From Marinobacter alexandrii (GTDB lineage: Bacteria; Bacteroidota; Bacteroidia; Cytophagales; Cyclobacteriaceae): 64,000 bases of DNA. The position numbers and the translations under genes are program-made. The notes below the pieces were generated by a model that was not told the origin of the DNA, did no database searches, and worked only from the letters and a program-made list of their open reading frames with translations. The stretch is taken from assembly GCA_039984955.1 (NCBI GenBank), contig JBDWTN010000006.1:186001-250000 (forward strand). The letters are read 5' to 3'. The first letter of the stretch is position 1. Every line of letters begins with the position of its first letter. Of this stretch, positions 9,743 to 32,603 are shown in pieces.

Positions 9743-10138
9743 GGGGTCGACCGGAATCGACAGGAAGTGCAAAGCATACGCTAGCATGCAGGGTGTTGAA
9801 TGAGCACGCTTAATCAATTCGTTCACAATTGTAATTGGCGAGTCTAACTACGCTATGGCAGCATAATTTCGAATAAAGTAGAAATTACTAAGGGTTGAAC
9901 CATATAGGTTCCCCCTGTCACATCCTACCATGCCTCTGTCCTTTAGGCAGGAATATAGGGTGTCGAAATTTAGGAATAGTGCAGACGGTTGTTGCAACGT
10001 CTACATGAAATAAAGCAACTGACTTTTGGAGTGGGCTGTTATTCGCCAGCTTCATTAGCGAGAATTAATGAATAACTAAGCATGTAGAAGGTTTATGGTT
10101 TCCTTAGCTGGACGAGGGTTCGAATCCCTCCGACTCCA
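9743..10138 (+). ncRNA. ssrA: Transfer-messenger RNA (tmRNA)
   Basis: The one-piece tmRNA rescues stalled ribosomes. The 5' end GGGGTCG pairs with the 3' CGACTCC through a G3-U wobble, the alanine identity element. The T-arm GAGGGTTCGAATCCCTC is intact and the discriminator A is at 10138; the CCA is not encoded. The tag reading frame starts at GGC (9837) and reads G-E-S-N-Y-A-M-A-A before TAA at 9864-9866, a normal degradation tag for the phylum. The GACGGTTG...CAACGTC-type pairing near 9983-10003 probably belongs to a pseudoknot. The 3' end is the attachment site of the island that follows. The gene remains complete because the element supplies an identical 3' end, but its native terminator has been moved to 32604. 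Confidence 0.96.
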
Positions 10139-10142
10139 CTTT
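10127..10142. other. attL core repeat of the ssrA-integrated island
   Basis: CCTCCGACTCCACTTT, the last bases of ssrA plus four flanking bases, recurs exactly at 32588-32603. It is the only long exact repeat shared by the two borders and therefore the likely strand-exchange region. Confidence 0.85.
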
Positions 10143-14078: not shown

Positions 14079-14163
14079 GAAAAAGTTATCTTATATGAAA
14101 AAATATTACTTTTTCGAAAGTCATCAATAGCACTTAAAATCTATCTCTTTGATCTTCTGAAAC

Positions 14164-14189
14164 GGACAAATGAAGCTGCGAAACGGACA
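14164..14189 (-). promoter_or_regulatory. LytTR-type direct repeat, site A
   Basis: GGACA at 14164-14168 and 14185-14189 (period exactly 21 bp), each preceded by AAAC. On the transcribed side this reads TGTCCGTTT twice. It lies about 86-111 bp upstream of the 14078 start codon. Confidence 0.6.
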
Positions 14190-14207
14190 TCAAATTGTAG
14201 ATTATGT

Positions 14208-15452
14208 CTAGTCATACGCCCTTTTCCTGAACCAAACATCTCTTATAATCACACTGAAACTTAATGTCGATGCTGTCTCCCTTATTAAATTAGACGAGGT
14301 AGTTCCAGTTGAGTAAAATTGATAGCTAAGATTTAGTGAAGCTGCACTGCGATTGATTGGAATACCTATGCCAGCCGTATAGTACTGGCTAATGAAATCC
14401 TCATTATCAATCGACACGTAGTTAGAGTGAATACCTCCACCAAATCGAAATGCTATTCTTTCTATGAGCTTTTCTGAAAATCGATCTTTGATGAATTGAG
14501 CACCTACTGATGTAATAAACCGATCTCTGTAAGTATATCCATCCTGTGACTTGTTTGACCCCCAATTTTCAAATTCATAATCCAGGTTCACATTCCAAGA
14601 CTTAATATTAACTCCAAGGCCTAATCCTAATTTTTGAGGTATATATACATCAGAATCATCCTGAGACGATAGCGTATCAGTCGTTATACCAGAATCACTT
14701 ATGATCAACTCTTCTTGGTTTACTGTAGCACTTCCACCTGTTCTAAAAGTGGAACCTAACACAATGCTTTTAGCTTCACCCAATTGGTATTCATATTGAA
14801 GCCCTGCTTCCAAAAGTGCTTTTACAAAACTCTTTTCATTGATGATTTGGAGGTTGGTTCTAGGCTGTGATACGGAGAGCACTTCATCTTTATCCTGACT
14901 GCCAAATAGAAAATGGGTTTTAAGACCTAAATGAAAATTCTTATGGATGGAATAACTTCCTGCGAGATACACTTCTGAACTTCCTCCTTCTCCAATATGC
15001 CTGGAGTCTGATCTTCCCGAACTATTGCTGCCCGATTGTGAATCCAGAATATCGTATGAAGCATCGCTGAACTTAGCTATCCCCAATGAAAGAGCAGTTC
15101 TTGGACTAGCTCTAAACCAATAATTTAAATCATGTATTCCGCCAAATGAACTATTAAATGAATCATCATTAGCACTTTGAGTAAGATTAGAAAATGTCAC
15201 ACCTACATCAAATATTTGTGTAAAGCCCCTTATTGAATTTAGTGCTGCTGGGTTTTTCAGATTCACCATATCCATTGGACGCGAACCTAGTGCGGCATAT
15301 CCCATTGCCTCATACGGAACTAAGCCTGTTTGTTCCAGTGTGCCAATTCCAAACACATTATATGCTGAATTACCAATCGACTGGGAGGTACTCGCAAAAG
15401 TCAAAAAAATGAAAAAAGAGGCTAAGAGAGACCTCTCAATCAAATTCTTCAT
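14208..15452 (-). CDS. Outer-membrane beta-barrel protein, third gene of the DUF4270/kelch operon
   Basis: The 414-aa protein starts at MKNLIERSLLASFFIFLTFA, a good signal peptide ending near STSQS. An upstream ATG at 15503 would add 17 residues that lie inside the previous gene, so I prefer 15452, which overlaps the kelch gene by 17 nt. The rest is a run of amphipathic strands with Tyr/Trp/Phe girdles (YWFRASPRTALSLGIAKFSD, NFHLGLKTHFLFGSQ, WNVNLDYEFENWGSNK) as in FadL- or PorV-like barrels. It ends with a C-terminal aromatic-rich strand. In Bacteroidota, DUF4270 genes are often followed by a kelch lipoprotein and an outer-membrane barrel, as here. Function is unknown; export or uptake of a surface compound is a guess. 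Confidence 0.75.
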   Translation of the reverse strand: MKNLIERSLLASFFIFLTFASTSQSIGNSAYNVFGIGTLEQTGLVPYEAMGYAALGSRPMDMVNLKNPAALNSIRGFTQIFDVGVTFSNLTQSANDDSFNSSFGGIHDLNYWFRASPRTALSLGIAKFSDASYDILDSQSGSNSSGRSDSRHIGEGGSSEVYLAGSYSIHKNFHLGLKTHFLFGSQDKDEVLSVSQPRTNLQIINEKSFVKALLEAGLQYEYQLGEAKSIVLGSTFRTGGSATVNQEELIISDSGITTDTLSSQDDSDVYIPQKLGLGLGVNIKSWNVNLDYEFENWGSNKSQDGYTYRDRFITSVGAQFIKDRFSEKLIERIAFRFGGGIHSNYVSIDNEDFISQYYTAGIGIPINRSAASLNLSYQFYSTGTTSSNLIRETASTLSFSVIIRDVWFRKRAYD

Positions 15453-16449
15453 ATTCCTCGTTTGGTCTCCAAGCCCAAATATCATCGTGTCTCTGCGATG
15501 CACTTCTGCCTGTAGTCACATAACCTTGCCCGTCAATCACAAAGGAGATAGCCCCACCTCTGGCCCTGCCTTCAAATTCTGTGTAATCTTCATCCCAGAT
15601 TTGTGAGAATGGATCAAAAGAAATTACATCTGATAGATAAGAACCATTTTCACCTGTAGTAATATATGCGATATCGTCCATGACAAATGCAACTGCATCA
15701 AAACGCTCCATTGCATCAATAAACTCATCGAAGTAATCATTGTCGTCATCCTCTATAGAAAAGTCCAACCATGTATCAGCTTCAGGGTCATACGCCCAGA
15801 AGTCGTAAAGAAATTGATTATTGTTTAATCCGGATCCGACAAACGCCTTACCGTCCAAAACAAAAGCAAATGCACTTTCTCTCTTAGATCCAAACAAACT
15901 CAATGATTGTGTCCATGTATCAGTTGCTGGATCATATCTCCAAAAGTCTTTGAGAAAGCTACCGTCAAAGCCTGTTCCAACATAACCTTGGCCATTTAAT
16001 GAAAATGCTACAGCTGAATACCTTGCTGTACCTTCAAATGATGCTACTTCTGTCCATGCATTTGAATTAGGGTCGTATTCCCAGAAATCAGCTAGTTCTT
16101 CAGTTTCTAATTCATCATTGAAACCGGTACCAACATAGCCTTTTCCACCGGTACTAAATGCTACTGCGGATATCCTACCAACACCCGGAAACGGAGCTAC
16201 CTCTTCCCAAAAATTTCTACCAGCATCATACCTCCAAAAATCCTGAAGGTAATCATCCCCATCAGAGCCCAGGCCTACATAAGCTAACCCGTCAATCACA
16301 AAGCTGACTGCACCTGTACGTGTGTCACCTTCATAGTCGGATAACTTGACCCAATTTCCATCCTCATCCGAATCATCCGAATCATCTGGCGTACAGGAAA
16401 TAAGCCCTATCATCAGCGACGATATAAACAACAATATGATTTTTTTCAT
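15436..16449 (-). CDS. Kelch-repeat beta-propeller lipoprotein
   Basis: A 337-aa lipoprotein with lipobox LISC (cysteine at residue 19), followed by an acidic linker (DDSDDSDEDG). It then carries six kelch motifs of about 47-50 residues, each with the pattern A.AFV..G.AYVG.G.....DFW.YDP....W. The first begins near residue 43 (TRTGAVSFVIDGLAYVGLGS) and the last near 290 (RARGGAISFVIDGQGYVTTG). Six blades fit a closed propeller, likely a cell-surface binding module. It lies 10 bp after the DUF4270 gene and overlaps the barrel gene, so the three proteins probably act together at the outer membrane. No enzymatic residues (galactose-oxidase type) are visible. Confidence 0.9.
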   Translation of the reverse strand: MKKIILLFISSLMIGLISCTPDDSDDSDEDGNWVKLSDYEGDTRTGAVSFVIDGLAYVGLGSDGDDYLQDFWRYDAGRNFWEEVAPFPGVGRISAVAFSTGGKGYVGTGFNDELETEELADFWEYDPNSNAWTEVASFEGTARYSAVAFSLNGQGYVGTGFDGSFLKDFWRYDPATDTWTQSLSLFGSKRESAFAFVLDGKAFVGSGLNNNQFLYDFWAYDPEADTWLDFSIEDDDNDYFDEFIDAMERFDAVAFVMDDIAYITTGENGSYLSDVISFDPFSQIWDEDYTEFEGRARGGAISFVIDGQGYVTTGRSASQRHDDIWAWRPNEEYEEFD

Positions 16450-16459
16450 CTTTTGACTT

Positions 16460-17731
16460 TTAGTTTTTGATTGTATAAATATTTATTTCACTATCACTCG
16501 ATCGATCTCCAAGAATTACATGGGTAGGCGAGGTATTGAAATCACTTGCAGTAAGTAGTAGATAATATTCGCCCCCAAATGGCTGATTGAGTATGAATTC
16601 GACAATTTGGGTAGCATCCATCAGATAATAGTTATCCCTACCGTATTCATCATCGAATACCTGATTTAATGTGAATGTCTGACCACCTGTAACGTCAGCA
16701 AAATCTTCGTTTATGAGACTCACAGTTAAAGTCTGTGGATACTTCTCCTGCTCATGCTCAAACCACCTTATTTTCAGTTCTGCATCAGCCAGGATAAACT
16801 CCTCGCCATCTAGTAAAAGATCTCTTACACCTGTTATGTCAATCTTGGTAGCATACCCCAGACCTCCAATGATATATGCATTGTCATCCAGATTATCAGA
16901 AGCTATTTCATCATCTAGCTCTTCCACCACTAGGGCATCCGGAATATTGGTATGTGAAAATTTTGAATACTGAGGTTGTAAACCAATGAAAAAGTCAAAA
17001 TCTATGTTCGATAGCGATGTGGAGCTTATATCGGTTGTATGTATGGTGAGTTTCAAACTGTCTCTTGACAGTCCTACTATGAAAGCCGGATCTTTTAGAT
17101 AGAGCCTGAATCCTTTCAAATACTCATTTGCTTCTTCCTGGTCAGAAAATATATCATCATCATTTTCTAAGCGATTGAAAAGATCCTCACCAAATAAATC
17201 AGGAAGCCTCATTTCTAAATCTCTGATACGATCGGTCGCCCAAAGAAATTCTCTTTCTGCTAGGATAGTACCGGGTACGTCAGTTGCCCCCTCAATATCT
17301 GAGTAATTGTAAAGAGCTGCTTCATCTTCCAGGTACTCCAGCTCTCCTACTAGTTGTTCTAAAACGACGGTTTGACGTATAGTAACGTCATCCAGGTAAA
17401 GCGAGTACCCATCCATCGGGATAGTCAATGTGATGCTATCGTATTGAAGATTATCGGTAGACTCTGATTCAATCAGGTCTAAAAGAAAATAGGTTTCTAT
17501 ATTGAGATCGCCGAATGATGTATCATTTTGTCCGCCGATCAATAACCGATCTGATTGACTTGTAATCAATGAGTCGAAACGAACGGTTGTAAATTCTATC
17601 GGAATGGAGTTGTTGAGCGTGATCTGATAATCCGTACTCTCAATAAAGTCTTCTCCTATCACAGAAGATTCTGAACAAGATAAAATCCCCACACATAGGA
17701 CTAAAACGCCTATGACTCTTTCTTTTCTCAT
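16460..17731 (-). CDS. DUF4270 lipoprotein
   Basis: The 423-aa protein has a lipoprotein signal peptide (lipobox GILSC, cysteine about residue 19). The body matches the DUF4270 pattern: SVIGEDF, then FTTVRFDSLITSQSDRLLIG, GDLNIETYFLLDL, and a C-terminal segment with strands ending in SEINIYTIKN. DUF4270 proteins are a Bacteroidota family of large surface lipoproteins of unknown function, often paired with kelch proteins, as is the case here with 10 bp spacing. It is the first gene of the operon, and repeat site B lies 58-83 bp upstream of its ATG. Its acidic composition suits a surface-exposed beta-rich protein. Confidence 0.88.
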   Translation of the reverse strand: MRKERVIGVLVLCVGILSCSESSVIGEDFIESTDYQITLNNSIPIEFTTVRFDSLITSQSDRLLIGGQNDTSFGDLNIETYFLLDLIESESTDNLQYDSITLTIPMDGYSLYLDDVTIRQTVVLEQLVGELEYLEDEAALYNYSDIEGATDVPGTILAEREFLWATDRIRDLEMRLPDLFGEDLFNRLENDDDIFSDQEEANEYLKGFRLYLKDPAFIVGLSRDSLKLTIHTTDISSTSLSNIDFDFFIGLQPQYSKFSHTNIPDALVVEELDDEIASDNLDDNAYIIGGLGYATKIDITGVRDLLLDGEEFILADAELKIRWFEHEQEKYPQTLTVSLINEDFADVTGGQTFTLNQVFDDEYGRDNYYLMDATQIVEFILNQPFGGEYYLLLTASDFNTSPTHVILGDRSSDSEINIYTIKN

Positions 17732-17788
17732 AAGTGCTGCAAATAGAATACTTCAGTTTTCGACTAGTAAGTCAGAAGATCCTAGAAC

Positions 17789-17814
17789 GGACAAATTGAA
17801 GCTTGAAGTGGACA
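17789..17814 (-). promoter_or_regulatory. LytTR-type direct repeat, site B
   Basis: GGACA at 17789-17793 and 17810-17814, period 21 bp, with the shared centre AAATTGAAG (site A: AAATGAAG). It lies just upstream of the DUF4270/kelch/barrel operon. Confidence 0.6.
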
Positions 17815-17822
17815 ACAAGATA

Positions 17823-18269
17823 TTACCCATTGTCCTTTTTCTTTTTTCCTTTCTTTTTCTTCTTAGCCTTCTTAGCGACTTTCTCTGCCTCTATTTGTTC
17901 TTCTGTTTTCTTGCGGTTTGCAGACCAATTCATTGACCTTCCACTCATGGGACCACTTGAAAAAGAAGATGTACCTGACATTCTGTTTTCATTCGAGATC
18001 TTGCCTTTAAAGCTGGCAGCCATCGCCCCCATTGGTGTTGTGATGTTTCGATCCCAGCTCACATTTTGGCCATCGATTGTCATCACATATTCTCCTTCAT
18101 TTGACCAGACTGTTGCTTTGCTTCCATCTTGTTTGATGCTTATATCAGAAGATCTTTTCCCTCTTGGTGTATCTTGGGTAATCGTCCAGTCTCCAGAGAT
18201 ATCTATTTCTTGTGCTTGGACAGTCAGGATTAACAAAGTGATAAAAATTGATAGAATTGCTTTTTTCAT
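17823..18269 (-). CDS. Small secreted protein, paralogue of the 131-aa protein at 21587
   Basis: The 148-aa protein has a signal peptide (MKKAILSIFITLLILTVQAQ). A lipocalin-like small beta domain follows at about 22-115 with GDWTITQDTPRGKRSSDISI, MTIDGQNVSWDR, FKGKISNENRMSG and SGRSMNWSANR. These key positions (G.W, ID.N.V.W, F.G.I.N, GR...W.A.R) are shared with the protein at 21587-21982, so the two are paralogues. The C terminus is a lysine-rich tail (KKAKKKKKGKKKKDNG) absent from the paralogue. It has its own upstream repeat (site C). Function is unknown; a periplasmic or surface ligand-binding role would fit the fold. Confidence 0.75.
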   Translation of the reverse strand: MKKAILSIFITLLILTVQAQEIDISGDWTITQDTPRGKRSSDISIKQDGSKATVWSNEGEYVMTIDGQNVSWDRNITTPMGAMAASFKGKISNENRMSGTSSFSSGPMSGRSMNWSANRKKTEEQIEAEKVAKKAKKKKKGKKKKDNG

Positions 18270-18342
18270 TTTAATAAGTTTTTTAATGACTGAAATAAAG
18301 ACGCTCTGTTGGGAGGTCTAGTTTGTCGTAAACGGCCTAAAC

Positions 18343-18368
18343 GGGCAAAATCGATGTTCAGGCAGACA
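18343..18368 (-). promoter_or_regulatory. LytTR-type direct repeat, site C
   Basis: GGGCA at 18343-18347 and AGACA at 18364-18368, period 21 bp, 74-99 bp before the start at 18269. An extra CCGTTT-like copy lies at 18331-18336. Confidence 0.5.
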
Positions 18369-18384
18369 GTATTAAACTTGAGCT

Positions 18385-21099
18385 TTACCCTTTCTTGAAG
18401 TTCCTAATGGTATACATGAAGGATAACATGAAATACTGATTTAATACTAGTGATTCTTGCTCTTCAAAGTAAGCTGCAGTCACATTTTGGGTTACGCTCT
18501 GGTTCTGGTTCAACAGATCATAGACACTTAAGGATACTTCTCCTGCATTATCCTTTAGGAATTTTTTTGCAATACTTCCATTCAACAATGCATAGCTGGT
18601 ATCAAATTCGTCTGAGATCCCATCATACATCTGATACTGAATGTCACTTCTCAGAACAAATCCTTTCCAAAAAATAAGATTGAGATTACCACCCACGGTG
18701 TGGGTACTGTATTGGTTATTTTGATTCTCCTGAGTAGAGTTTTCTACCTGGTTTCCATTCCATGTGTATGATACATTGAAATCAACTTTTTCACTGATAT
18801 TGCTCGCGAAGGTAAGCCTGGAATTTAAGTTGAATGTTTCTGAGATATTTTCTATCCCATTCACAAGACCAGGATTTCGGATGTAGGAAACACCTGCTGT
18901 AGCATTTACGTTTAGCTTGAACGCTTCCAGTACGAAACTGTAGGTGGTGTTATTCCTCACATTCCAATATCCATCAATATTAACTGGTGAAGCAAGCTGA
19001 GCTCCACGCTCTAAAACTATCCCAGGAGCCAGCGTAGAATCCTGGGGTGTTATAAATGTGCCATTTGTAATGAAATTGGATGTGGTATTGATAATCGAGA
19101 AATTAGATATAGAAGTATTCTTTTCCACGTTCGTTTTAGCTATCCTCATAAAAAGCTGATGGGTATAGCTTTGGTCCAGGTTCGAATTTCCAACGGACAA
19201 GAATAATGGGTTACTATTATCTATTACTTCCTGAAGTTGACTAGTGCTTGGGGCTGAAGTACTGGTACTATACCTCATAAACATGTCTACTTTATTAGTA
19301 ATTGGAATCCTACCAAAGAAAGTAGGAAGCAACACATTGAATGAACGATTGTCCAGGCTCGTATTTACCCCTTCGTTTGCATTATCAAATTGAGAATGCT
19401 GAAAAGCCAGACCTGCTGAAAAGAAATTTGAAAATGACCTGACGCTATAGTTCACTGAAGGTCTATGGTAAGTTAATTCACTGTTGAGATTTCCGGAGAG
19501 CGCATCATTCACTGAAGCCGCACCTCGGTTAGTTTCATCAAATTCAATTGTATTAATGATTCTTTCCCGATCTTCTTGCCTCAACTCATAGCCTATTTGT
19601 ACTTGGCCACTTTTGCCCACTGGCTCTATGTAACCGACCTCAGCAGCGTAGGTATTGTTTAGTCGCTCGTTTTGATAAATGGTAGTAGAGTCGTTTTCAA
19701 AGTCACGAAAGGTATCTTCCCCTTCAGAGTTAAATGTGTTGAAGTTTAACTCTGTAAACATGGACCTCCCTTGTTTCCCAAATTTATGCCTGTAGATCAG
19801 GTTATTATTAACATCGTAAGCATTACTGACCGTTGTAAAATCATTTTCAGTAGCATTCAAGCTTTCTTCACGAAAAACCGTATTTGCACTGGTACGATCT
19901 ACTGAACTGAAATCTTGAATTGTAACTGACGGGGTATAGATAATCGTGTTTTTATCATTTATCTGGTACTCCCCTCTTGCATTGAGCCGATGATTGGTAT
20001 TATCCGAATCAGAGGCTCTTTGCTCGTTGTAAACTTGTCCTTGTTGTTCTCCAAAAAATGTACGTTGGGTTTCCTCGATATTGTCCAATCTGGATCTATC
20101 ATAAAAATAGCTCGACTCCAATCGCCATTTATTTTCTTCCCCTTCATTGGAGTAATTAAAACCAAACGTTTGTGTATTGGTAATTCCTGTTGGAGCCTGG
20201 GCAGCTCCTCCTCCAAAAAACCGGTTACCTCCTCTTTGGCCCCCACGACCTCCCGAAGCATCTGAATTGGAAAAATCACTCTTATTGATATCATTTGTAA
20301 GGCCTAGTAGGGTGAGTTGTCTTCTGTTTTTGAAACTATTAAGATTCCCTTCAATCCAGTGACGTTCATCTGTACCTACCCCTGCTCTAATCCTTCCAAA
20401 TTCACCCTGTCGTTTACCTTCTTTGGTTACCACGTTCATGGTTTTTATGGTATTCCCATCGTCAAAACCTGTGGCTCTCGCTCGTTCGCTCTGCTGATCA
20501 AAAACTTCTATCTGATTGACCACCTCTGCAGGTATGGTATTGAGTGCCAATAAAGGATCTTGTCCAAAAAATTGTTTCCCATCGACTAATACCTGTCTCA
20601 CACTCTCTCCATTTGATTCCACCGTGCCATCACCCACTACCATTCCAGGCATCTTAGATACTAAATCGGCAGCAGTAGCATCAGGATTAACCGTATATGC
20701 ACCTGCTTTGTAAAGTACAGTATCGCCTTTTTTCTGCACAGCAATTTCTTCCGCCTCTACCACCACCTCATCCAGCTCTGTGGCTATTGACTCTAACAGA
20801 ATTGGATTAATAGTCATATCTTGAGTCACTCGTATGTATTGCCTGAATGTACGGTACCCTAAGCTTTGTATTCTGATTTGATAAAAAGCTTGATTTAGAT
20901 TTTTTACAGTAAAGCTGCCGTCTGTATTCACTGAAGTAAACGCTGATTTAAGGGAATCTTTGACATTTACAAATAGGACGGTGGAACCGATCATTGACTC
21001 CCCAGACCCGTCTTCTAATACTCTGCCTGAAACGTTAAATTGTTGACTATTTACGATCGTACTGACACAAAGCGTCATTAATATGATAAAGTTTTTCAT
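18385..21099 (-). CDS. TonB-receptor-like outer-membrane beta-barrel protein (OMP_b-brl_3 type)
   Basis: The 904-aa protein has a signal peptide (residues 1-18). A carboxypeptidase-regulatory-like domain (about 20-105: FNVSGRVLEDGSGESMIGST) is followed by a plug-like domain (about 130-225: DLVSKMPGMVVGDGTV, RQVLVDGKQFFGQDP, IEVFDQQSERARATGF) and a large barrel to the end with a terminal aromatic strand (YFMLSFMYTIRNFKKG). A Gly-rich loop (GGRGGQRGGNRFFGGGAAQA, 282-301) is probably external. No clear TonB box is seen. The family (outer membrane beta-barrel protein 3) transports or binds unknown ligands. It follows the small Spy-like gene by 12 bp, so both are probably one unit behind the weaker repeat site D. 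Confidence 0.88.
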   Translation of the reverse strand: MKNFIILMTLCVSTIVNSQQFNVSGRVLEDGSGESMIGSTVLFVNVKDSLKSAFTSVNTDGSFTVKNLNQAFYQIRIQSLGYRTFRQYIRVTQDMTINPILLESIATELDEVVVEAEEIAVQKKGDTVLYKAGAYTVNPDATAADLVSKMPGMVVGDGTVESNGESVRQVLVDGKQFFGQDPLLALNTIPAEVVNQIEVFDQQSERARATGFDDGNTIKTMNVVTKEGKRQGEFGRIRAGVGTDERHWIEGNLNSFKNRRQLTLLGLTNDINKSDFSNSDASGGRGGQRGGNRFFGGGAAQAPTGITNTQTFGFNYSNEGEENKWRLESSYFYDRSRLDNIEETQRTFFGEQQGQVYNEQRASDSDNTNHRLNARGEYQINDKNTIIYTPSVTIQDFSSVDRTSANTVFREESLNATENDFTTVSNAYDVNNNLIYRHKFGKQGRSMFTELNFNTFNSEGEDTFRDFENDSTTIYQNERLNNTYAAEVGYIEPVGKSGQVQIGYELRQEDRERIINTIEFDETNRGAASVNDALSGNLNSELTYHRPSVNYSVRSFSNFFSAGLAFQHSQFDNANEGVNTSLDNRSFNVLLPTFFGRIPITNKVDMFMRYSTSTSAPSTSQLQEVIDNSNPLFLSVGNSNLDQSYTHQLFMRIAKTNVEKNTSISNFSIINTTSNFITNGTFITPQDSTLAPGIVLERGAQLASPVNIDGYWNVRNNTTYSFVLEAFKLNVNATAGVSYIRNPGLVNGIENISETFNLNSRLTFASNISEKVDFNVSYTWNGNQVENSTQENQNNQYSTHTVGGNLNLIFWKGFVLRSDIQYQMYDGISDEFDTSYALLNGSIAKKFLKDNAGEVSLSVYDLLNQNQSVTQNVTAAYFEEQESLVLNQYFMLSFMYTIRNFKKG

Positions 21100-21111
21100 T
21101 AAATGATTGGG

Positions 21112-21486
21112 TTAATCCTGACCGTCGGGTTGATTTTGACGACCTCTTGGATTTCTTCCGGCTATAGCCATGTATTTTTGATATTGATCGTTATTCAAAA
21201 CGTCTTTGACCAGAAGGTTTTTTTCTTCTTGCAGAGAAGACATTTTAGTACGCATCTCTCCAAAGTTTCTGGTCTTTCGTATCTCTTCAAAGGTCTCTTT
21301 AATTGTCTGGCCGTACTCTTTGTAAATACCTTCGAGCAGTTCTTCCTGCATCCAATTAATCCCTTCAATCTTCATCACATTCTCTTGCTCTCTTAGTACC
21401 ATTTCGTTAAAATTGAGGCCTACTGGAGGTTGAGCCATTATACTAAGGCTTGATAAGGCTAAAATTCCTATTAGTAATTTCTTCAT
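21112..21486 (-). CDS. Small periplasmic helical protein (Spy/CpxP-like), operon partner of the OMP
   Basis: I prefer the start MKKLLIGILALSSLSIMAQ at 21486, a proper signal peptide; the longer reading from 21546 adds 20 residues that look non-coding. The mature part (about 105 aa) is helical and charged (WMQEELLEGIYKEYGQTIKE, MRTKMSSLQEEKNLLVKDVL) and ends NNDQYQKYMAIAGRNPRGR. This recalls LTxxQ-type Spy/CpxP periplasmic chaperones (the QYQKY motif near the end), but the similarity is general. It lies 12 bp before the TonB-receptor-like gene and probably shares its promoter. It may help that barrel fold or sense its misfolding; this is inference. Confidence 0.7.
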   Translation of the reverse strand: MKKLLIGILALSSLSIMAQPPVGLNFNEMVLREQENVMKIEGINWMQEELLEGIYKEYGQTIKETFEEIRKTRNFGEMRTKMSSLQEEKNLLVKDVLNNDQYQKYMAIAGRNPRGRQNQPDGQD

Positions 21487-21547
21487 TGCATTTAAGGTTT
21501 GAGAAGTAGACGGTTCACCTGGTTGAATGTTTATAAAGAAACTCATG

Positions 21548-21577
21548 AGACAGGCGAATAAAACGCTAAAGCGGACA
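21548..21577 (-). promoter_or_regulatory. Degenerate LytTR-type repeat, site D
   Basis: GGACA at 21573-21577 is present, but the partner 21 bp away is poor (AGGCG at 21552); an AGACA lies 25 bp away at 21548. An adjacent GCTTTAGCGTTTTA stretch resembles site C. It lies 62-91 bp before the Spy-like gene. Confidence 0.35.
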
Positions 21578-21586
21578 GAATGCAGT

Positions 21587-21982
21587 CTATTCTATTTCCG
21601 AATCCTTGGAAATACGATGCGCCCTCCATTTAACTGCCCGTCCGCTGTAAATCCCATGGTGTACAAGCAAAACGCCCTTGAGGTAATCACTGTTTTTAAT
21701 TACACCATTAAAAGTGGCTAGTTCTTTACCTCTTCTAAAATTTAGCGGATATGACCAAGCAACTTGATTATGATCAATCCTAATTTCAAACTTCCCTATG
21801 GAAGACGTAGCTTTTGCTAAGGTATCTGTGCTTTCAACATATAGCGTTAGCAATTCCTTACCGTCAGGCATTTTATAAGATAGTTCCCATTTCCCTGATA
21901 GATCGGTCTGCTGAGTGAAAGCGTTAAAGCCTAAGATGAGAGAGATTCCAAAAATCAATTTTCTAAAGATCACTTGCATCAA
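21587..21982 (-). CDS. Small secreted lipocalin-like protein, paralogue of the 148-aa protein
   Basis: The 131-aa protein has a signal peptide (FRKLIFGISLILGFNAFTQ). The domain repeats the landmarks of the protein at 17823: GKWELSYKMPDGKELLTLYV, IRIDHNQVAWSY, FNGVIKNSDYLKG and SGRAVKWRAHRI. It lacks the lysine-rich tail. It is a separate unit behind repeat site E and ends about 100 bp before the Spy-like gene. Having two copies under the same candidate regulatory sequence suggests a duplicated role in the response controlled by the island's two-component pair. The biochemical function is unknown. Confidence 0.75.
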   Translation of the reverse strand: MMQVIFRKLIFGISLILGFNAFTQQTDLSGKWELSYKMPDGKELLTLYVESTDTLAKATSSIGKFEIRIDHNQVAWSYPLNFRRGKELATFNGVIKNSDYLKGVLLVHHGIYSGRAVKWRAHRISKDSEIE

Positions 21983-22032
21983 GCAAATGACGGAATGCCG
22001 ATAGTGTATTCCCAGTATTTTTGTATTGAGGT

Positions 22033-22058
22033 GGACAAAATGAAGGAAGAGGTGGACA
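22033..22058 (-). promoter_or_regulatory. LytTR-type direct repeat, site E
   Basis: GGTGGACAAAA occurs twice with an exact 21-bp period (GGACA at 22033-22037 and 22054-22058); the centre AAAATGAAG matches sites A and B. It lies 51-76 bp upstream of the 21982 start. Confidence 0.65.
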
Positions 22059-22095
22059 AAACTCTATGCTTGCTTTTACTATGATTCAGAAAACA

Positions 22096-23400
22096 TCAAT
22101 CTAAAAGCAAGCCTGCCAGCTGTCTAAGATTCACCTCCGCCACTTTGAGATCGTATTTTGCACGGGTATAATTATTTCGGGCATTAAACAGATTGATTTG
22201 GGCTTGCCGAAACTCAATGGAAGTGACCTGACCTAAACTGTATTGCTTCTCGGTGCGTCTGAAGTTTAGCTCGTTGGTTTCTATATTTTTTGCTTCTGCT
22301 TCAAAGGTCTTTGCTGCTATTCTGTAGGTTTCAACTGCGTTTAACAATTCGGTGTTGACCTCACGCTTAATTTTTTCCCGCTCCAACCTCCGGTTTTCCT
22401 GAGTGATCCTGCTGGTCTGCGTTTGTGTCACATTCCGTCCATCAAACAATGCCCAGCTCAAAGAAAGCCCTAGATTGATTCCGCTAGTCTCGGTAGCTAG
22501 TGCGAATGAGGTGGGTGGGTTTTGGCTTTCATTCCAACGATAAGCACCGCTTCCACTGATCTTCGGTAGGAATTTTGCCTTGCTAATGTTAATATCCAAA
22601 TCACTCAGGTAGAGGTTTTGCCTGGCCAACTCCATTTGAATGTTGTTTTGCTGCGCCTCGTTAATCAGCTCCGTCATGTTTTCAATCGGTGAAAAACGAA
22701 TAGCTGTGTCAGTCTTAAAACTGGTTTCTATTGCTCTACCTAAAATAAGATTGAGGTTTCTTTTAAGGTTATTTAGGTCTCTAACCGCTTCGAAATAAGC
22801 GATGCTATCATTGTTGAGATCAACCTGTGCATTAGAAACATCCAATGAGGTACCTTGACCGTACTTAATGTTTTTTTGAGCACGTAGAAACCTGATCCTC
22901 GAGTTTTCGATGGTTAGCTCCAGGTTCTCTACTACTTGCTTTTGAAACGCCACATTGAAGAAGCTTTGATAGACAGAGATGATCGTATTCTCAATTTGTT
23001 GTCTTTCTTGTAGAGTGGAAAGCTTAACGTTCTCCTCTCGTTTATCCTGATTGAATTTTCGTTCCATTCCATCAAATAGGACGTATTCTGCAGTTACGGA
23101 TGCATTGTACGATTCCGTTACCGCACCATCAATAGAAGTGCTGTTCCCATCTGCGAAGGTTACACTTTGATTTTCTTCAGCGTAATTAATCCCGCCACTT
23201 GCTCGAAGGGTTGGCAAATAGCCGCTGTTCAGCGTCCCGGCTTGCTTCTCAGCAATAACTGTATTGTTCCCTGCAATTTTAAGGTCGTAATTGTTCTTCA
23301 CCGCAATAGCTAATGCATCTTCTAGTGACAGAAGCTCTTGCGTAGCTCCCGAGCGGACAATAAAGCAGGTGAAAATTAGTATCCAATTAAATCGTCTCAT
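22096..23400 (-). CDS. TolC-family outer-membrane efflux channel
   Basis: A 434-aa outer-membrane factor with a signal peptide (residues 1-20). Two OEP repeats are dominated by long helices that build the periplasmic tunnel: LLSLEDALAIAVKNNYDLKI starts repeat 1, and LDINISKAKFLPKISGSGAY with the following strands starts repeat 2. The end KVAEVNLRQLAGLLLD is typical. Its start overlaps the RND pump stop by 14 nt, and it is the last gene of the DUF6268/adaptor/pump/channel operon, so it is the dedicated exit duct. Length is normal for Bacteroidota TolC proteins. Confidence 0.93.
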   Translation of the reverse strand: MRRFNWILIFTCFIVRSGATQELLSLEDALAIAVKNNYDLKIAGNNTVIAEKQAGTLNSGYLPTLRASGGINYAEENQSVTFADGNSTSIDGAVTESYNASVTAEYVLFDGMERKFNQDKREENVKLSTLQERQQIENTIISVYQSFFNVAFQKQVVENLELTIENSRIRFLRAQKNIKYGQGTSLDVSNAQVDLNNDSIAYFEAVRDLNNLKRNLNLILGRAIETSFKTDTAIRFSPIENMTELINEAQQNNIQMELARQNLYLSDLDINISKAKFLPKISGSGAYRWNESQNPPTSFALATETSGINLGLSLSWALFDGRNVTQTQTSRITQENRRLEREKIKREVNTELLNAVETYRIAAKTFEAEAKNIETNELNFRRTEKQYSLGQVTSIEFRQAQINLFNARNNYTRAKYDLKVAEVNLRQLAGLLLD

Positions 23401-26400
23401 GCTCTGCTTTTAGTTCTTTGATTGCACGTTCTACTTGCTCCCTTTCAGGCTTAGTGCCGGTTATTAGTTGCTTAAATCTTACTTTGACACTGTTGGCCAC
23501 TGAGAGGAAAATGGGCAGCATAAAGAGTGTAAGTAATGTAGCTACCGCGATTCCATAAGAAATAGAAATAGCCATTGGGATGAGAAACTGAGCCTGTAAA
23601 CTCTTTTCCAACATCAAAGGTGCAAGACCTGCTATGGTAGTAATGGAGGTAAGGAAAATAGCGCGAAATCTTGCACGACCAGTTTCATACAAAGCTTCAG
23701 TGAATGGCAAACCTTCCTTAAGAAATGCATTAAATCTCCCGATGAATACAAGACCATCGTTGACCACAATGCCGATCAGACCAATGATTCCCAAAAAGGA
23801 CAGCACATTGATAGAGAAACCATGTATGTAATGACCCCATCCCACACCTATAATCGAAAAGGGCACCAACGCAATCAGAATGAACGGTTGGCTATACGAC
23901 CGAAAGGCAAAAACAATCACGATGTAAATGAGGAAAATGACGGCAGGCATGACTACTGCTGCAGAATTGATGATCTTATTCGTCTCCCTATTCTGACCTT
24001 CTGCGCTTGCTGTGATTCCTGGATATTCCTTCTCAATTTCTTCAGCAACCGGGCCAGTCAGCATTGACATGATATCTGCCGCATTTGTGTTACCAATTAC
24101 ATCAGCTTCTACGGTTACTTCTCTCACACCATCTGTGTGGTTGATAGCAACTTCTCCTCGTTGAATAGTGTATTCCGCAATCTCACCTAGAGCAACCCTG
24201 CCTTCTTGTGTGCTGATCTCAATGTCTCGGATACTTGATAGAGATGACCGGTCTTCACGTGCATACCTTACCCATACTTTTACCTCATCTTCATCTCGCT
24301 GTACGCGCTGCACCTCATTGCCAAAAAAGGCATTCCGAACCTGCCCCATCACGTCATTGAGGGTCAATCCTAAAAGCTCTGCGTTAGGTTTCAGACTCAG
24401 GTTGATTTCTTTCGTTCCATCAGGACTGGTATCCACAATGTCTTTGACACCTGGTGTATTTTCTAGGACTTCATAGACTTTTTGTTTGGCTGCATCAAGT
24501 TTTTGAGGGTCTTTTCCTCGCAGGGAAAGCGATATCGGGCTTCCTCCCACGTTTGCCCCAGAGTTAAAGCTGAGCTTCTCAAGCTGAGAAATGGAGCTCA
24601 CCGTGCTTCGAATGTTATCTGCAATCTCCGGGGAGCCAAAAGCCCTTGTTTCGCTAGGTGAGAGATTAACAGTGATAGACGCAGTAGAACTTCCGCGTCC
24701 AATTTGCTTCACTACATTTTGCACATGATTTTCACCTTCCAGGTTTTCGCCTAAACCTTCATTGACCTGCCAAACGGACTGCTCCACGTATGTAGCAATA
24801 GAATCTGTGATTTGCTCTGCCGTTCCTTGTGGAGTGTTCATGGAGATACGAATCTGATCACTTGCGTTACTGGGAAAAAAGGAAAAGGTGATGATCTTTC
24901 CGGCAAAGGCACCCATCGTGAGCATGAAGAAGAAAATGATCACTGCTAACGAGAGGAACTGATGTTTCAAGCTAAATCGATACAGCGGGCTGTATAGCTT
25001 GTCACGCATAAAAGCCATTACCTGATCACCGTATTTATTTAGCTTATACGTTTTTGACTGATCTGCCAGATCTTTGGAATGGGCCAAATGTGCCGGAAGT
25101 ATGAGCAATGCCTCGATTAAAGAAACAGCCAGTGTAAGAATCACAACTACAGCAATATCTTTGAAGAAAGCACCTATAGCTCCATCAAGGAAGAAAAAAA
25201 TGGAAAAGGCCAAAACAGTAGTAGCAATTGCCGATAAAATAGGTACAATCACTTCCATCGTTCCATTTATTGCTGCTTTGATTCGCGAATCTCCTTTCTC
25301 CGCTCTGCTGTAGATATTTTCTGCAATCACAATCCCATCATCAACTAAAATTCCGATAACAAGGATCATACCAAACATACTGAGCATATTAAGTGTGACC
25401 CCAACCTGTGGCAAAATGATAAACATGCCGAAAAAAGAAATAGGTAAGCCAAAGGCTACCCACATAGCAACTCCCGGGCGTAGGAAAAATGACAAGAGAA
25501 TAAGCACCAATACCATCCCAATAATGGCATTTTCTAACAATAAGTCTATTCTGCTTTTGATAGCTTCAGATGAGTCAGAGGTAACAATTAAGTTGACATT
25601 GCTATGTGTTTCATTGAATGTTTTGATATATTCTTTCACCATGTCGGCACTCCCGATAAGGTCTTCTGTATTCGTATTGGTGATCGAAACGTTGATAGCT
25701 CGTTTGCCATTGACGGAAAGCTGATCGGTCGTCTCGCTAAATGTATTGGAAATAGTGGCGATTTCTTTGAGTAATACCTTGCCACCCGAAGGGTCTGTTT
25801 TTACTACAATACCTCTTAATCCTTTGGCATAATATGCTTTGTTATCTGCTCGTATCAGGTACTCTTCTTTACCTGTTTTTATGGATCCCCCCGTGATCTG
25901 GATATTAGCGTTTGCTACAGCACGGGAGACCTCTTCAAATGTGAGGTTGTAGCTTCTTAATTTTTCCTCAGTTACCGCTATTTCGACCTCTTCCTCAGGA
26001 AATCCGGATAGGGTTACTTGTGAAATCCCTTTAATAAGCATGAGTTCATCTTCGATATCTTGCGCGGTTTCTTTGAGCAGGTTGAGTGGTATGTTATCCC
26101 CCGTTACCACGAAGACTATGGACTCCCGCGTAGGGTCCACTTTCTCTACTACGGGTGGTTCAATCCCTCTTGGAAAAGAGGGTATTTTATCTACTGCATT
26201 TTTGACATCTTCAAGCAAGAGGTTGATGTCATAGTCCGTCACCATTTCTACAGAAATAGTACCTGCATTTTCATTTGAAATAGAGGTCACACGATCAATC
26301 CCCTGGATGCCCTTCAGGTTTCGCTCTATTTTTTCAATAACGCCTTCCTCCACTTCTTCCGGAGATGCTCCGGGGTAGGTCACCGATATCCTGACAAGTG

Positions 26401-26530
26401 TAGGGTCTGCCAACGGAAAGAATGAGGAGTTCATTCGTTGATAGCCCAGGTAGCCGAAAATCAAAAAGCCTATAATGAAAATATTGACTGCTACCGGATA
26501 TTTGATGAAATAGCTAATGAATGATCTCAT
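23387..26530 (-). CDS. RND-family efflux permease (AcrB/CusA-like)
   Basis: A 1047-aa inner-membrane proton antiporter. Residues 1-30 hold TM1 (FIIGFLIFGYLGYQRM). Two large periplasmic porter regions lie at about 35-330 and 550-840, with two sets of membrane helices. The proton-relay motif is in TM4: ILVIGILVDDGIVIAENIY, with the paired aspartates. The first porter region begins with YPGASPEEVEEGVIEKIE, the pattern of this superfamily. The sequence is closer to the broad RND group of Bacteroidota than to specific metal pumps: no methionine clusters typical of CusA are evident. It is coupled to the adaptor (4-nt overlap) and the channel (14-nt overlap). The substrate is not predictable. Confidence 0.95.
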   Translation of the reverse strand: MRSFISYFIKYPVAVNIFIIGFLIFGYLGYQRMNSSFFPLADPTLVRISVTYPGASPEEVEEGVIEKIERNLKGIQGIDRVTSISNENAGTISVEMVTDYDINLLLEDVKNAVDKIPSFPRGIEPPVVEKVDPTRESIVFVVTGDNIPLNLLKETAQDIEDELMLIKGISQVTLSGFPEEEVEIAVTEEKLRSYNLTFEEVSRAVANANIQITGGSIKTGKEEYLIRADNKAYYAKGLRGIVVKTDPSGGKVLLKEIATISNTFSETTDQLSVNGKRAINVSITNTNTEDLIGSADMVKEYIKTFNETHSNVNLIVTSDSSEAIKSRIDLLLENAIIGMVLVLILLSFFLRPGVAMWVAFGLPISFFGMFIILPQVGVTLNMLSMFGMILVIGILVDDGIVIAENIYSRAEKGDSRIKAAINGTMEVIVPILSAIATTVLAFSIFFFLDGAIGAFFKDIAVVVILTLAVSLIEALLILPAHLAHSKDLADQSKTYKLNKYGDQVMAFMRDKLYSPLYRFSLKHQFLSLAVIIFFFMLTMGAFAGKIITFSFFPSNASDQIRISMNTPQGTAEQITDSIATYVEQSVWQVNEGLGENLEGENHVQNVVKQIGRGSSTASITVNLSPSETRAFGSPEIADNIRSTVSSISQLEKLSFNSGANVGGSPISLSLRGKDPQKLDAAKQKVYEVLENTPGVKDIVDTSPDGTKEINLSLKPNAELLGLTLNDVMGQVRNAFFGNEVQRVQRDEDEVKVWVRYAREDRSSLSSIRDIEISTQEGRVALGEIAEYTIQRGEVAINHTDGVREVTVEADVIGNTNAADIMSMLTGPVAEEIEKEYPGITASAEGQNRETNKIINSAAVVMPAVIFLIYIVIVFAFRSYSQPFILIALVPFSIIGVGWGHYIHGFSINVLSFLGIIGLIGIVVNDGLVFIGRFNAFLKEGLPFTEALYETGRARFRAIFLTSITTIAGLAPLMLEKSLQAQFLIPMAISISYGIAVATLLTLFMLPIFLSVANSVKVRFKQLITGTKPEREQVERAIKELKAEHETI

Positions 26531-27654
26531 AGACCTGCTGTACTTTTCTTAACCTCCACTTTCATTCCAGGATACGCACTGGCAATGGCTTGCTTCACCA
26601 ACCATGTTCCTGGTTTTAATCCACGAACAACGAGGCTATCCTCAACGTAATTGATTGGCTCAACTTTTTGTAATTCGAGCTGCTCGTTCCGTACTACATA
26701 CACACTTTCATTCGCAGTAAGTAAGTTGCTGGTGATCGGGACTACATCGAATATCTTTTCACCCCGAATCTTTGCATTGAGGTACTGGCCTTCTTTTAGA
26801 TCAGGATGTGAGACTTCCACATACACTTCTATGGTTTGTGTTTGCTGGTTGATTTTAGGATTTATACGACTGATCTTTCCTGAATACTCGGATCTTCCTT
26901 CTACAGTTTTAAGCGTAGCACTGGACCCCATTTTTAAGTATTCATTTTGACTCGCAGGTACCATGATCTTTAATTCGAATACGGAAGGATCGATCAATTC
27001 CCCGAGCTTCTGTCCATTCCTCACCAATGCACCAGGGTTTACGTTGGCTTCCGTAAGTACTCCACTGAAAGGAGCGTAAATGGTGTATTTACCCAACCGT
27101 TCTTCCTGGTTCTTCACATTGTAATAGGATTGAATGATGTTTCTTCCCGTGATGAAAAATTTTACTTCATCGCTCTCCACTTTTGGTAAAGGCCTCAGCG
27201 GTTGGTCGACATCAAATTCTCGTAAGTACTTCTCCCATTTCTGCGCTGCTTTTGGAAATTCAATCTCCATGTCTGGGAGTATAGCAGCTATTTGACTCAT
27301 GAAATTACTCTTGCTGGATTTTAATTGTGCCAGGTATTCAGCGTCATTAATCTTGATAACCGGCCTACCTTTTTGAAAGATATTACCTTCTTTGAAAGCA
27401 GGGTTATTAGGAAGCAATAGCCCTTGCACTTCGCTGAAAATCTCGATTTTTTCCTTTGCTCTTAAAGTCCCTGTAGCTGAAATTAAAAACGATCTGGAGG
27501 AAGGGTTCACTTCAATAACCTCTACCAAAGGTGCCTTGGTATTAGTGGTTTCTGCTATGGCTTCTTTAGTGCCTTGCTCTCCTAGCACCCTGAATAGTAA
27601 AAAGGCTATGACTAAAACCGCTATTCCGATAAGTACGCTATAAATTCTTTTCAT
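26527..27654 (-). CDS. RND efflux periplasmic adaptor (membrane fusion protein)
   Basis: A 375-aa HlyD/AcrA-type adaptor. I choose the start MKRIYSVLIGIAVLVIAFLL at 27654; the ATG at 27672 would overlap the upstream gene. An N-terminal membrane anchor is followed by a lipoyl/barrel-sandwich half (SATGTLRAKEKIEIFSEVQG), a short helical hairpin (NFMSQIAAILPDMEIEFPKA), the second lipoyl half (YTIYAPFSGVLTEANVNPGA), beta-barrel and membrane-proximal domains. The hairpin is short, as in adaptors of small Bacteroidota pumps. It lies between the DUF6268 gene (7-bp gap) and the pump (4-nt overlap). Confidence 0.92.
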   Translation of the reverse strand: MKRIYSVLIGIAVLVIAFLLFRVLGEQGTKEAIAETTNTKAPLVEVIEVNPSSRSFLISATGTLRAKEKIEIFSEVQGLLLPNNPAFKEGNIFQKGRPVIKINDAEYLAQLKSSKSNFMSQIAAILPDMEIEFPKAAQKWEKYLREFDVDQPLRPLPKVESDEVKFFITGRNIIQSYYNVKNQEERLGKYTIYAPFSGVLTEANVNPGALVRNGQKLGELIDPSVFELKIMVPASQNEYLKMGSSATLKTVEGRSEYSGKISRINPKINQQTQTIEVYVEVSHPDLKEGQYLNAKIRGEKIFDVVPITSNLLTANESVYVVRNEQLELQKVEPINYVEDSLVVRGLKPGTWLVKQAIASAYPGMKVEVKKSTAGL

Positions 27655-27661
27655 TTTGTTT

Positions 27662-28582
27662 TCAATTTCCAAAACCCATTTTTGGACTCACACTAAACCT
27701 TAATCCTATCCTAAAAAAAGCACCTGCATCAGCGTTGAGGTCAAGCAGTTCATTATTGGCACTATCTTCTATTGTGAGAATTGGAGCAGGGACAAATCCT
27801 CCTGCTGCTACCGCAGAAATATTTTTGGATAGCTTTCGGCGATATGATAGCTCTGCATTAAATCCATTGAACCTCAACTTGGTGTTTTCCAGCACTTCAC
27901 CATTCTCTACCAAGACAGGATTTGGATTATTAGCATATACTCCTTGTGGTCGCATGCTTAAGGAAAGTCTGTTTTTATCATCGATCCGATAATCGATCCC
28001 AGTCATGGGGATTCCGATAGAGAAGCTCAGCTTTTCATTAACTTTCCTTCTTAGGTTGATAGTAGGGATGATTGTTGGTCGCCCAAGCTGTGAGCCATAC
28101 AATACTCCAATCATAAGTGTCGTATTTTTATTGAAGTCACCCCATCTCTTTGATACTGCTCCCAACGTATTGACAATGATGTCTTCAGATCCAATACCGT
28201 CATCGAGGGTAGACATTAAATTCGGTCCAACTGATATCATGATTGACCAATTATTCTTTAATGGCTTTCTAATGAAGAAGTTTGTCCTAATGCTATGGAT
28301 CTGCTCATAGGTGGATAGATCCGTATTGATATCACTTTCATCAAAATCGAACTGCAAATACTCATAATTCACTCCAAAGCCTATCATCCATGTAGAGAGA
28401 GGTTTCATGAAGTTAAGATTCGCTCCATAGTTTGTAACTGAATGTCCGCCAATATCCGGCAAATATCCCGCATCCAGACCAGCTATATCAATGCCATCTC
28501 GTGGATCGAATGACATCATTTGAGCTGTTGAGTAGCTAAAGCACGCGATTAGAATAATCCCTGAAATAAGAGGTCTCGACAT
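27662..28582 (-). CDS. DUF6268-family outer-membrane beta-barrel protein
   Basis: The 306-aa protein has a signal peptide (MSRPLISGIILIACFSYSTA). The body is a series of barrel strands (YGANLNFMKPLSTWMIGFGV, FFIRKPLKNNWSIMISVGPN, NKNTTLMIGVLYGSQLG, LSFSIGIPMTGIDYRID) matching the DUF6268 pattern of Bacteroidota outer-membrane proteins. It ends FFRIGLRFSVSPKMGFGN. It is the first gene of the RND efflux operon, about 95-120 bp downstream of repeat site F, so the whole pump operon is probably controlled from that site. Function is unknown; as the first gene it may sense or assist the efflux complex. Confidence 0.82.
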   Translation of the reverse strand: MSRPLISGIILIACFSYSTAQMMSFDPRDGIDIAGLDAGYLPDIGGHSVTNYGANLNFMKPLSTWMIGFGVNYEYLQFDFDESDINTDLSTYEQIHSIRTNFFIRKPLKNNWSIMISVGPNLMSTLDDGIGSEDIIVNTLGAVSKRWGDFNKNTTLMIGVLYGSQLGRPTIIPTINLRRKVNEKLSFSIGIPMTGIDYRIDDKNRLSLSMRPQGVYANNPNPVLVENGEVLENTKLRFNGFNAELSYRRKLSKNISAVAAGGFVPAPILTIEDSANNELLDLNADAGAFFRIGLRFSVSPKMGFGN

Positions 28583-28675
28583 AAGTGTTTTATTAAAAAA
28601 TCAGGATTAAGTGATAGTTTTAGCCACAAAAAACGAGGATGAAAAAGGGAATGTTAGCTCTATTAGCGATCTATC

Positions 28676-28701
28676 GGGCAATATCCTTTATGAAATGGGC
28701 A
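28676..28701 (-). promoter_or_regulatory. LytTR-type direct repeat, site F
   Basis: GGGCA at 28676-28680 and 28697-28701, period 21 bp, about 94-119 bp before the start of the DUF6268/RND operon. The rest of the 28583-28764 gap shows no gene. Confidence 0.55.
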
Positions 28702-32587: not shown

Positions 32588-32603
32588 CCTCCGACTCCAC
32601 TTT
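32588..32603. other. attR core repeat
   Basis: CCTCCGACTCCACTTT, identical to attL at 10127-10142. The base before it differs (T versus C), which marks the border of the repeat. Confidence 0.85.

Follow-up and report, generated by a model that had tools for sequence, protein, structure and literature searches.

The 64,000-nucleotide (nt) stretch of Marinobacter alexandrii DNA analysed here (the window, from contig JBDWTN010000006.1) contains a putative mobile island at the 3′ end of the tmRNA gene ssrA, in which a LytS-type histidine kinase and a LytTR response regulator lie among minus-strand genes for envelope proteins. The favoured reading, to which a probability of about 0.86 is assigned, is that of a self-contained LytS/LytTR envelope regulon, with the paired repeats upstream of several island units as predicted binding sites of the island LytTR protein. 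On the transcribed strand, the motif reads TGTCCRYYTC-N11-TGTCCRYYTC, two half-sites of 10 base pairs (bp) with a 21-bp period. This extended form was written from three of the six candidate sites themselves (A, B and E; Table 1). A, B and E are certain as sites, while C and F are probable and D is uncertain.

The spaced repeats reported in the first-pass annotation of this DNA are confirmed, with several adjustments. Four of the GGRCA pairs 21 bp apart, A (14164), B (17789), E (22033) and F (28676), match exactly, and the pair at C (18343) has the spacing with one mismatch to GGRCA-N16-GGRCA. The weak sixth site (D, 21548-21577) remains uncertain and is kept as a candidate first half of a pair; scored as the second half, it was ruled out (score -6.5). 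A distance of 50-120 bp to the first gene had been claimed. The annotated start codons behind A, B, C, E and F begin 46-89 nt past the end of the site; at D the gap is 1 nt, or 61 nt if counted to MKKLL, the likelier start. The centre AAA(A/T)TGAAG, described as common to three sites, lacks one base in A, and relatives do not conserve the TGAAG within it. At up to one mismatch, GGRCA-N16-GGRCA has 17 matches in the window against a shuffled mean of 6.82 (standard deviation 2.67), a count that none of 100 shuffles reached.

Genome-wide, the short pattern behaves differently from the extended one. The whole-genome scan that had been suggested alongside the initial observation returned 15 matches of the GGRCA pattern versus 20 of its reversed control, so that the pattern is not enriched, and 4 of the 15 fall in this one 14.5-kb stretch. 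Enrichment of the bare pattern was therefore dropped as evidence; the short motif alone proves nothing because both genome and family counts match the reversed controls. The weight is carried by the extended motif, its place and its distance from the -7 box. At up to three mismatches the extended motif has 16 matches in the genome (no mismatch in A and E, two in B, three in each of the other 13) and its reversed control has 23, but A, B and E are the sole places with two or fewer mismatches in the 4.88 Mb of the host genome (8 contigs), all of them within one island. When N40-TTTG is appended, exactly three matches are left at up to three mismatches, namely A, B and E, and the control has none.

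The motif and its geometry recur in other genomes. Sixteen loci (312,534 bases) were picked by LytTR protein similarity only; 15 are centred on LytTR relatives from other genomes, the last on two paralogues of this genome. At a lag of 21, the extended motif occurs 14 times at up to three mismatches, in nine of the 16 loci (eight times at up to two), versus 0-4 times (0-2 at up to two mismatches) at every other lag between 14 and 35, 21 in all, and not once in the reversed sequence. Although TTTG played no part in finding these 14 occurrences, it lies exactly 40 nt past the second half-site in nine of them, and every other offset is seen at most twice. It should be noted that the loci include near-copies (L033/L036 and L034/L035), that the L039 site is inside a long coding frame, and that some sites (the first L037 site, L038 and L043:17930) sit in short predicted frames that may not be real. 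Across 16 whole genomes, chosen for LytTR relatives or earlier motif matches, the motif with TTTG has 31 matches versus 4 for the control.

A position matrix was trained on 19 sites of relatives, none of them from this genome. For some training sites the TTTG part of the matrix is circular, since the pattern or filter that found them already contained TTTG; no selection was ever made for the A of TAnnTTTG, which 18 of the 19 sites have. Rows L141 and L142 (perfect half-sites, no TTTG at the expected place) were taken as probable chance and dropped from training. Also dropped were the L036 site (identical to that of L033), the coding L039 site and the L035 minus-strand site, a near-copy of that in L034. 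This relatives-only matrix puts A (38.8), E (30.8), B (26.1), F (14.6) and C (11.9) at the top of both strands of the window, and the sixth-best score, 11.8, belongs to a register overlapping F. Other loci of this genome served as background (320,704 bases, 641,408 positions over both strands), with top scores of 16.1, 11.5 and 10.8. With fixed spacing C is below the best background score, but its half-sites score 19.9, more than any background position, and with a floating -7 box it again exceeds them all. For F, two background positions score at or above it with a floating box and six on half-sites alone; for D, with a half-site score of 14.2, the figures are eight and two, respectively. No position upstream of the kinase operon, the 12022-12717 barrel gene or the RibD-like gene scores above 0, in agreement with the earlier remark that the kinase operon has no such repeat. 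Ten named-record LytTR relatives, from Pontibacter, Dyadobacter, Fibrisoma, a Spirosomataceae bacterium and uncultured Bacteroidota, provided loci outside the training set: the best score is at least 13 in nine and at least 17 in seven, with reversed-sequence maxima of 4.4-15.2. L147 and L148 have good half-sites with TTTG one base nearer, and L149, whose LytTR protein was filtered out of the tree described below, carries its site, with a score of 27.5, within a predicted frame.

The phylogeny of the regulators links the motif to one lineage. The tree holds 45 LytTR proteins, including 17 of the 33 other LytTR paralogues of this genome (the remaining 16 were removed by the filter), and a protein was labelled as having a site when a position scoring at least 17 lay within 9 kb (15.5 kb for the window). 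A clade of 21 proteins (support 99/95) has a site in 19, a wider clade of 24 (95/90) in 21, and none of the 21 proteins outside the wider clade has one, among them the 17 paralogues. The label needs 3 changes on the tree versus a shuffled mean of 15.2, and the island regulator is the sole motif-clade member among the 18 LytTR proteins of this genome in the tree. The motif thus tracks one LytTR clade across several genera and not the other LytTR proteins tested.

Upstream regions of homologous genes, a comparison also proposed with the first-pass annotation, bear this out, with sites preceding homologues of the island targets in Pontibacter, G072, Dyadobacter and G186. The Pontibacter diazotrophicus locus (L150, not used in training) reads site (40.6), DUF4270, kelch, kinase, LytTR, site (47.7), TonB-like barrel, with identities to the island proteins of 44% (kelch), 49% (LytTR) and 37% (TonB-like barrel). 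In G072 (L031, not in training) homologues of the kinase, LytTR, DUF4270, kelch, ORF431 and opacity-like genes stand in island order, with a site of 24.4 (L031:5967) before the opacity-like gene, in a promoter homologous to that of site A, and a candidate of 15.4, within background, before DUF4270. The G186 locus (L032, not in training) has a site of 18.4 before OEP-HlyD-RND-DUF6268-kinase-LytTR, and a training locus in G113 (L140) has one before HlyD-RND-OEP-kinase-LytTR. Two Dyadobacter loci (L144 and L151) carry sites of 24.5 and 23.1 at 67 nt before an OEP gene with an RND gene next, and TonB-receptor-like genes (CarbopepD_reg_2 plus Plug) follow sites in L033 (in training) and L148. The claim that the island LytTR protein controls the envelope units is thereby supported at the level of prediction, through clade co-occurrence, spacing to the -7 box and sites before homologous targets.

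Several relatives differ from the window in a further respect. Candidate sites precede the kinase gene in five of them (L143, 25.9; L144, 23.1; L145, 17.6; L146, 23.3; L151, 11.5, the last within background), which suggests autoregulation there, whereas the window has no such site. In G127, G136 and G182 (L045, L135, L136, L137) the motif precedes DoxX-like, DUF1223, alpha/beta-hydrolase, OsmC-like and haem-binding/cytochrome P460 genes, and this gene content suggests a redox-flavoured regulon for the sister regulators of those genomes. Additionally, a G136 site (L043:17451-17930) lies before a 128-residue protein weakly like DUF2147, below the Pfam cut-off, that may be related to the island's two small paralogues.

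The position of the sites fits upstream activation. The TAnnTTTG box of Flavobacterium psychrophilum spans -12 to -5 (PMC9723704), and when this numbering is transferred the half-sites fall at about -79 to -70 and -58 to -49. Half-sites ending near -49 leave the -33 region free, which suits activation from upstream, the mode that PMC11347149 states for most LytTR regulators. Leaders counted by hand under the -7 rule are about 32 nt for A and about 40 nt for F. In the proposed mechanism, the roughly 22.4-kb island would bring its own LytS-type kinase, LytTR regulator and envelope units; the LytTR protein would bind the paired TGTCCRYYTC half-sites, 21 bp apart, on one face of the DNA; and the dimer, presumably phosphorylated, would recruit RNA polymerase from 40 nt upstream of the TTTG of the -7 box. 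The RND export unit, the DUF4270/kelch unit, the small secreted proteins, the outer-membrane barrel and perhaps the TonB-like barrel would then be switched on jointly. We infer both activation rather than repression and an envelope signal; the regulon is probably activated by LytTR. Its membership as first proposed holds in part, for D (the ORF144/TonB-like unit) is uncertain and the barrel at 12022-12717 has no site.

A number of observations weigh against this reading. The threshold of 17 was chosen with the background maximum of 16.1 already known, and training sites came from ten of the loci in the tree. The wider clade has 14 held-out members, counting the window, of which 11 reach 17; of those 11, L036 has the site of a training locus and L032, L041 and L145 barely pass (18), while the misses are L147 (13), L148 (15) and L152, a member of the wider clade whose best score is 6. 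Within the window, F and D are at the edge of background, C and D have no good -7 box, and the kinase operon and the 12022-12717 gene are without a site. Over 196 genomes of the family, the extended motif at up to one mismatch shows no enrichment (32 matches versus 27 reversed). By the -7 position of PMC9723704, the B leader would be about 4 nt and the E transcript would start at the ATG itself, so that either the B (17731-17814) and E (21979-22058) transcripts are leaderless or nearly so, or their -7 boxes are misplaced. Finally, targets are only partly common to the relatives because sites there also precede genes unlike those of the island, encoding a short-chain dehydrogenase, an ankyrin/PD40 protein, DUF1223, DoxX-like, guanylate cyclase-like and alpha/beta-hydrolase proteins and haem-binding/cytochrome P460.

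Other explanations for the sites can be ranked against this evidence. It is unlikely, though it is the strongest of the alternatives, that the island LytTR protein binds the sites and represses, or activates or represses by position. CoxC is a LytTR-domain repressor whose repeats overlap a -35 box (PMC11347149), and position alone does not prove activation; however, by the -7 rule the island sites end at about -49, upstream of the -33 region and at a near-constant distance, and HdrR activates from repeats just upstream of -35 according to PMC6193735. A still smaller chance is left to a different regulator, for example one of the 33 other LytTR proteins, with the adjacent pair as a bystander. 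Such a role would be in keeping with 34 LytTR domains in one genome, 16 of the 33 others being outside the tree, and with the cross-regulation among paralogues known elsewhere, but none of the 17 paralogues in the tree belongs to the motif clade, the regions around all 33 have nothing at the score of A, B or E, and the motif accompanies relatives of the island regulator in other genera.

The two remaining accounts do without a regulator. That the repeats are promoter fragments copied along with duplicated genes, free of regulatory meaning, would fit the two units that encode paralogous small proteins and the extra bases common to A, B and E between the half-sites. The genes behind the sites are nevertheless unrelated and the downstream sequences differ, and the motif, its 21-bp lag and its 40-nt distance recur in other genera; conservation of the motif outside this genome makes copying very improbable. 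Chance, in the form of five-base-word repeats picked by eye, could appeal to the lack of enrichment of the short pattern genome-wide and of the bare motif in the family, yet it has next to no credibility when a matrix from other genomes gives the top five places of the window to five of the six sites and the shuffled-window, extended-motif, lag-21/TTTG, named-record and tree results all run contrary to it.

The remaining LytTR loci of the genome were searched for the same half-site. In the 29 regions around the 33 other LytTR genes, no place reaches the score of A, B or E. De novo repeats at these loci have different half-sites, with a lag of 21 again the commonest (236 near-matching positions versus 68-194 at 17 other lags, in a tally that includes overlapping positions and both strands). 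At that lag none of the TTTG offsets was prominent (34 and 35 occur 8 times each), so these loci give no sign of the 40-nt rule for other LytTR proteins. Repeats with a 20-21-bp period were seen at L107:2783, L114:4310-4408, L117:2815, L124:2239 and 4913, and L126:6004. Examples of their half-sites are ACCRCTRCTTACCG in L107 with CACCTTTG downstream, ATGTCTGAAATC in L114 and GTGAACRAC twice in L124; the L107 repeat presumably resembles the Escherichia coli BtsR half-site.

Islands integrated at ssrA have a tyrosine integrase adjoining the gene and a duplicate of its 3′ end at the far side. The window has both: the integrase gene adjoins ssrA, and 16 bp of the ssrA 3′ end recur exactly at 32588-32603. 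The island claimed in the first-pass annotation is thus supported as a putative mobile element, its mobility being predicted from the direct repeats at a tmRNA gene and the integrase. The island is like other ssrA islands in these two features, with an envelope regulon as its cargo. The two ssrA repeats enclose all six sites as well as the regulator and kinase genes. A second ssrA piece, 10108-10122, recurs at 32459-32473; the two far-end pieces keep their order, with about 114 nt between them, an arrangement that would suit an insertion into the repeat or the nesting of two elements. A Pfam scan of 18 island open reading frames (ORFs) found no conjugation or phage gene besides the integrase, and base composition, compared for signs of foreign origin, gives no contrast (37.7% to the left, 39.2% in the island, 40.5% to the right). 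An ssrA search of 10 genus genomes gave seven full loci, that of this genome included, plus one short match, and none of the window flank or island proteins that were tested was found within 1.5 kb of ssrA in the six other genomes, so that no empty integration site emerged. The best LytTR relative in five other same-genus genomes examined is 43% identical. Directly past the island, at 32653-54768, begin large minus-strand genes with 75-bp-period repeats, the first of which (32653-34488) has DUF285 repeats in a Pfam run on that gene alone.

Table 1. Ends, genes and predicted binding sites of the island, in window coordinates
Feature	Position	Strand	Remarks
tmRNA gene ssrA	9743-10139		
attL-like ssrA 3′ end	10127..10142	+	
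Tyrosine integrase of island	10396..11640	+	Pfam
OMP_b-brl_2 barrel	12022..12717	-	Without a site of its own; Pfam scan
Opacity-like barrel	12870..14078	-	Pfam scan
Site A	14159..14189	-	TGTCCGTTTC-N11-TGTCCGTTTC; precedes opacity-like barrel gene 12870-14078; -7-like box GACTTTCG at 14115-14122
DUF4270-kelch-ORF431 unit	14208..17731	-	DUF4270 16460-17731, kelch 15436-16449, ORF431 14208-15503; G072 keeps the gene order
Site B	17784..17814	-	Precedes DUF4270-kelch-ORF431; -7-like box 17740-17747
Small protein	17823..18269	-	Signal-peptide-like start; paralogue of 21587-21982
Site C	18338..18368	-	Precedes secreted-protein gene 17823-18269; half-sites good, -7 box weak
TonB-receptor-like barrel	18385..21099	-	CarbopepD_reg_2 and OMP_b-brl_3
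Small protein (ORF144)	21112..21546	-	Signal-peptide-like start; likely real start MKKLL, 20 codons in; no Pfam match
Site D (uncertain)	21547..21577	-	Precedes unit of ORF144 and TonB-receptor-like barrel; no good -7 box
Small protein	21587..21982	-	Signal-peptide-like start; paralogue of 17823-18269; no Pfam match
Site E	22028..22058	-	Precedes secreted-protein gene 21587-21982; -7-like TTTG ends at 21984
OEP outer-membrane efflux protein	22096..23400	-	Pfam
RND (AcrB/ACR_tran) pump	23387..26530	-	Pfam
HlyD-type membrane fusion protein	26527..27672	-	Pfam
DUF6268 protein, gene 1 of RND unit	27662..28582	-	Pfam; DUF6268 also in RND-kinase-LytTR gene string of G186
Site F	28671..28701	-	Precedes DUF6268-HlyD-RND-OEP; TTTG exactly 40 nt after half-site 2
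LytTR response regulator (receiver and LytTR), proposed binder	28765..29517	-	PF00072 1.2e-14 and PF04397 1.1e-10, both over cut-off; clade placement
LytS-type histidine kinase	29514..30569	-	PF06580 1.1e-20; HFLFN motif; 4-bp overlap with regulator gene
attR-like 16-bp exact repeat of ssrA 3′ end	32588..32603	+	Followed by hairpin and T-run

The minus-strand units run from 30569 to 12022, with the kinase/LytTR pair first and the small barrel last. Between them come DUF6268-HlyD-RND-OEP, a small protein, a second small protein with the TonB-like barrel, a third that is paralogous to the first (30% identity over 122 columns), DUF4270-kelch-ORF431 and the opacity-like barrel. The regulator combines the receiver and LytTR domains of a LytTR-family response regulator, and its partner is of the LytS type by PF06580, with an HFLFN box that reads QIKPHFLFNALNTL in translation. 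A profile search found 34 LytTR domains in this one genome, among which that of the island regulator has the lowest Pfam-model score.

The kind of system is already known, and the half-site code is newly described here. LytTR sites in general consist, according to PMC4847170, of two 9-11-nt repeats, direct or inverse, 11-13 nt apart and without a common sequence. The island sites, with 10-bp repeats, an 11-bp spacer and a position 40 nt before TTTG and hence upstream of the core promoter, agree with this form, and they are like the sites of AgrA, YpdB and others in repeat length and spacer. YpdA/YpdB is likewise a pair of a LytS-type kinase and a LytTR protein. What sets the island apart is its own half-site, TGTCCRYYTC, and the Bacteroidota TAnnTTTG -7 box 40 nt downstream.

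CoxC and RcoM1 come from outside Bacteroidota. They resemble the island in direct repeats at about two-turn spacing (18-21 bp for CoxC; PMC11347149), but differ in having three repeats and CO sensing within the same protein, and CoxC is a repressor. Closer in geometry are the sites predicted for operons like those of the LytTR regulatory system (LRS) in Bacteroides thetaiotaomicron and B. ovatus, which read repeat-11 bp-repeat, 11 bp, TGTA, 19 bp, TATCTTTG (PMC6193735 Table 3). By our own count from that table, the distance from repeat end to TTTG is 38 nt, close to the 40 nt of the island. However, the Bacteroides half-sites are 11 bp long, of other sequence and with a 22-bp period (10 bp and 21 bp in the island); the regulator is a membrane-bound LytTR protein with an NfeD-like/DUF2154 membrane partner and not a receiver-LytTR protein with a kinase; and operon autoregulation is predicted, whereas the island kinase operon has no site. 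The island therefore departs from the LRS pattern of an inhibitory membrane partner with repeats before its own operon, its partner being a histidine kinase. In a mostly shallow survey of open-licence literature, no binding-site code for receiver-LytTR proteins of Bacteroidota surfaced, nor did this half-site code, a cross-genus promoter distance or a single-island regulon of the kind proposed.

A broader interpretation can be offered tentatively, at somewhat less than even odds. The half-site pair with its near-fixed 40-nt distance to the -7 box may be the portable address of one LytS/LytTR clade across Bacteroidota, so that envelope cassettes (RND export, DUF4270-kelch, TonB-like barrels, small secreted proteins) would shuffle between islands and fall under the local sensor pair, the island here being a plug-in programme otherwise unused by its host. 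Already under the favoured reading, an envelope programme and its controller could travel together, and the motif, spacing rule and promoter geometry given here predict regulon members clade-wide from sequence and link DUF4270, kelch and DUF6268 proteins to one response.

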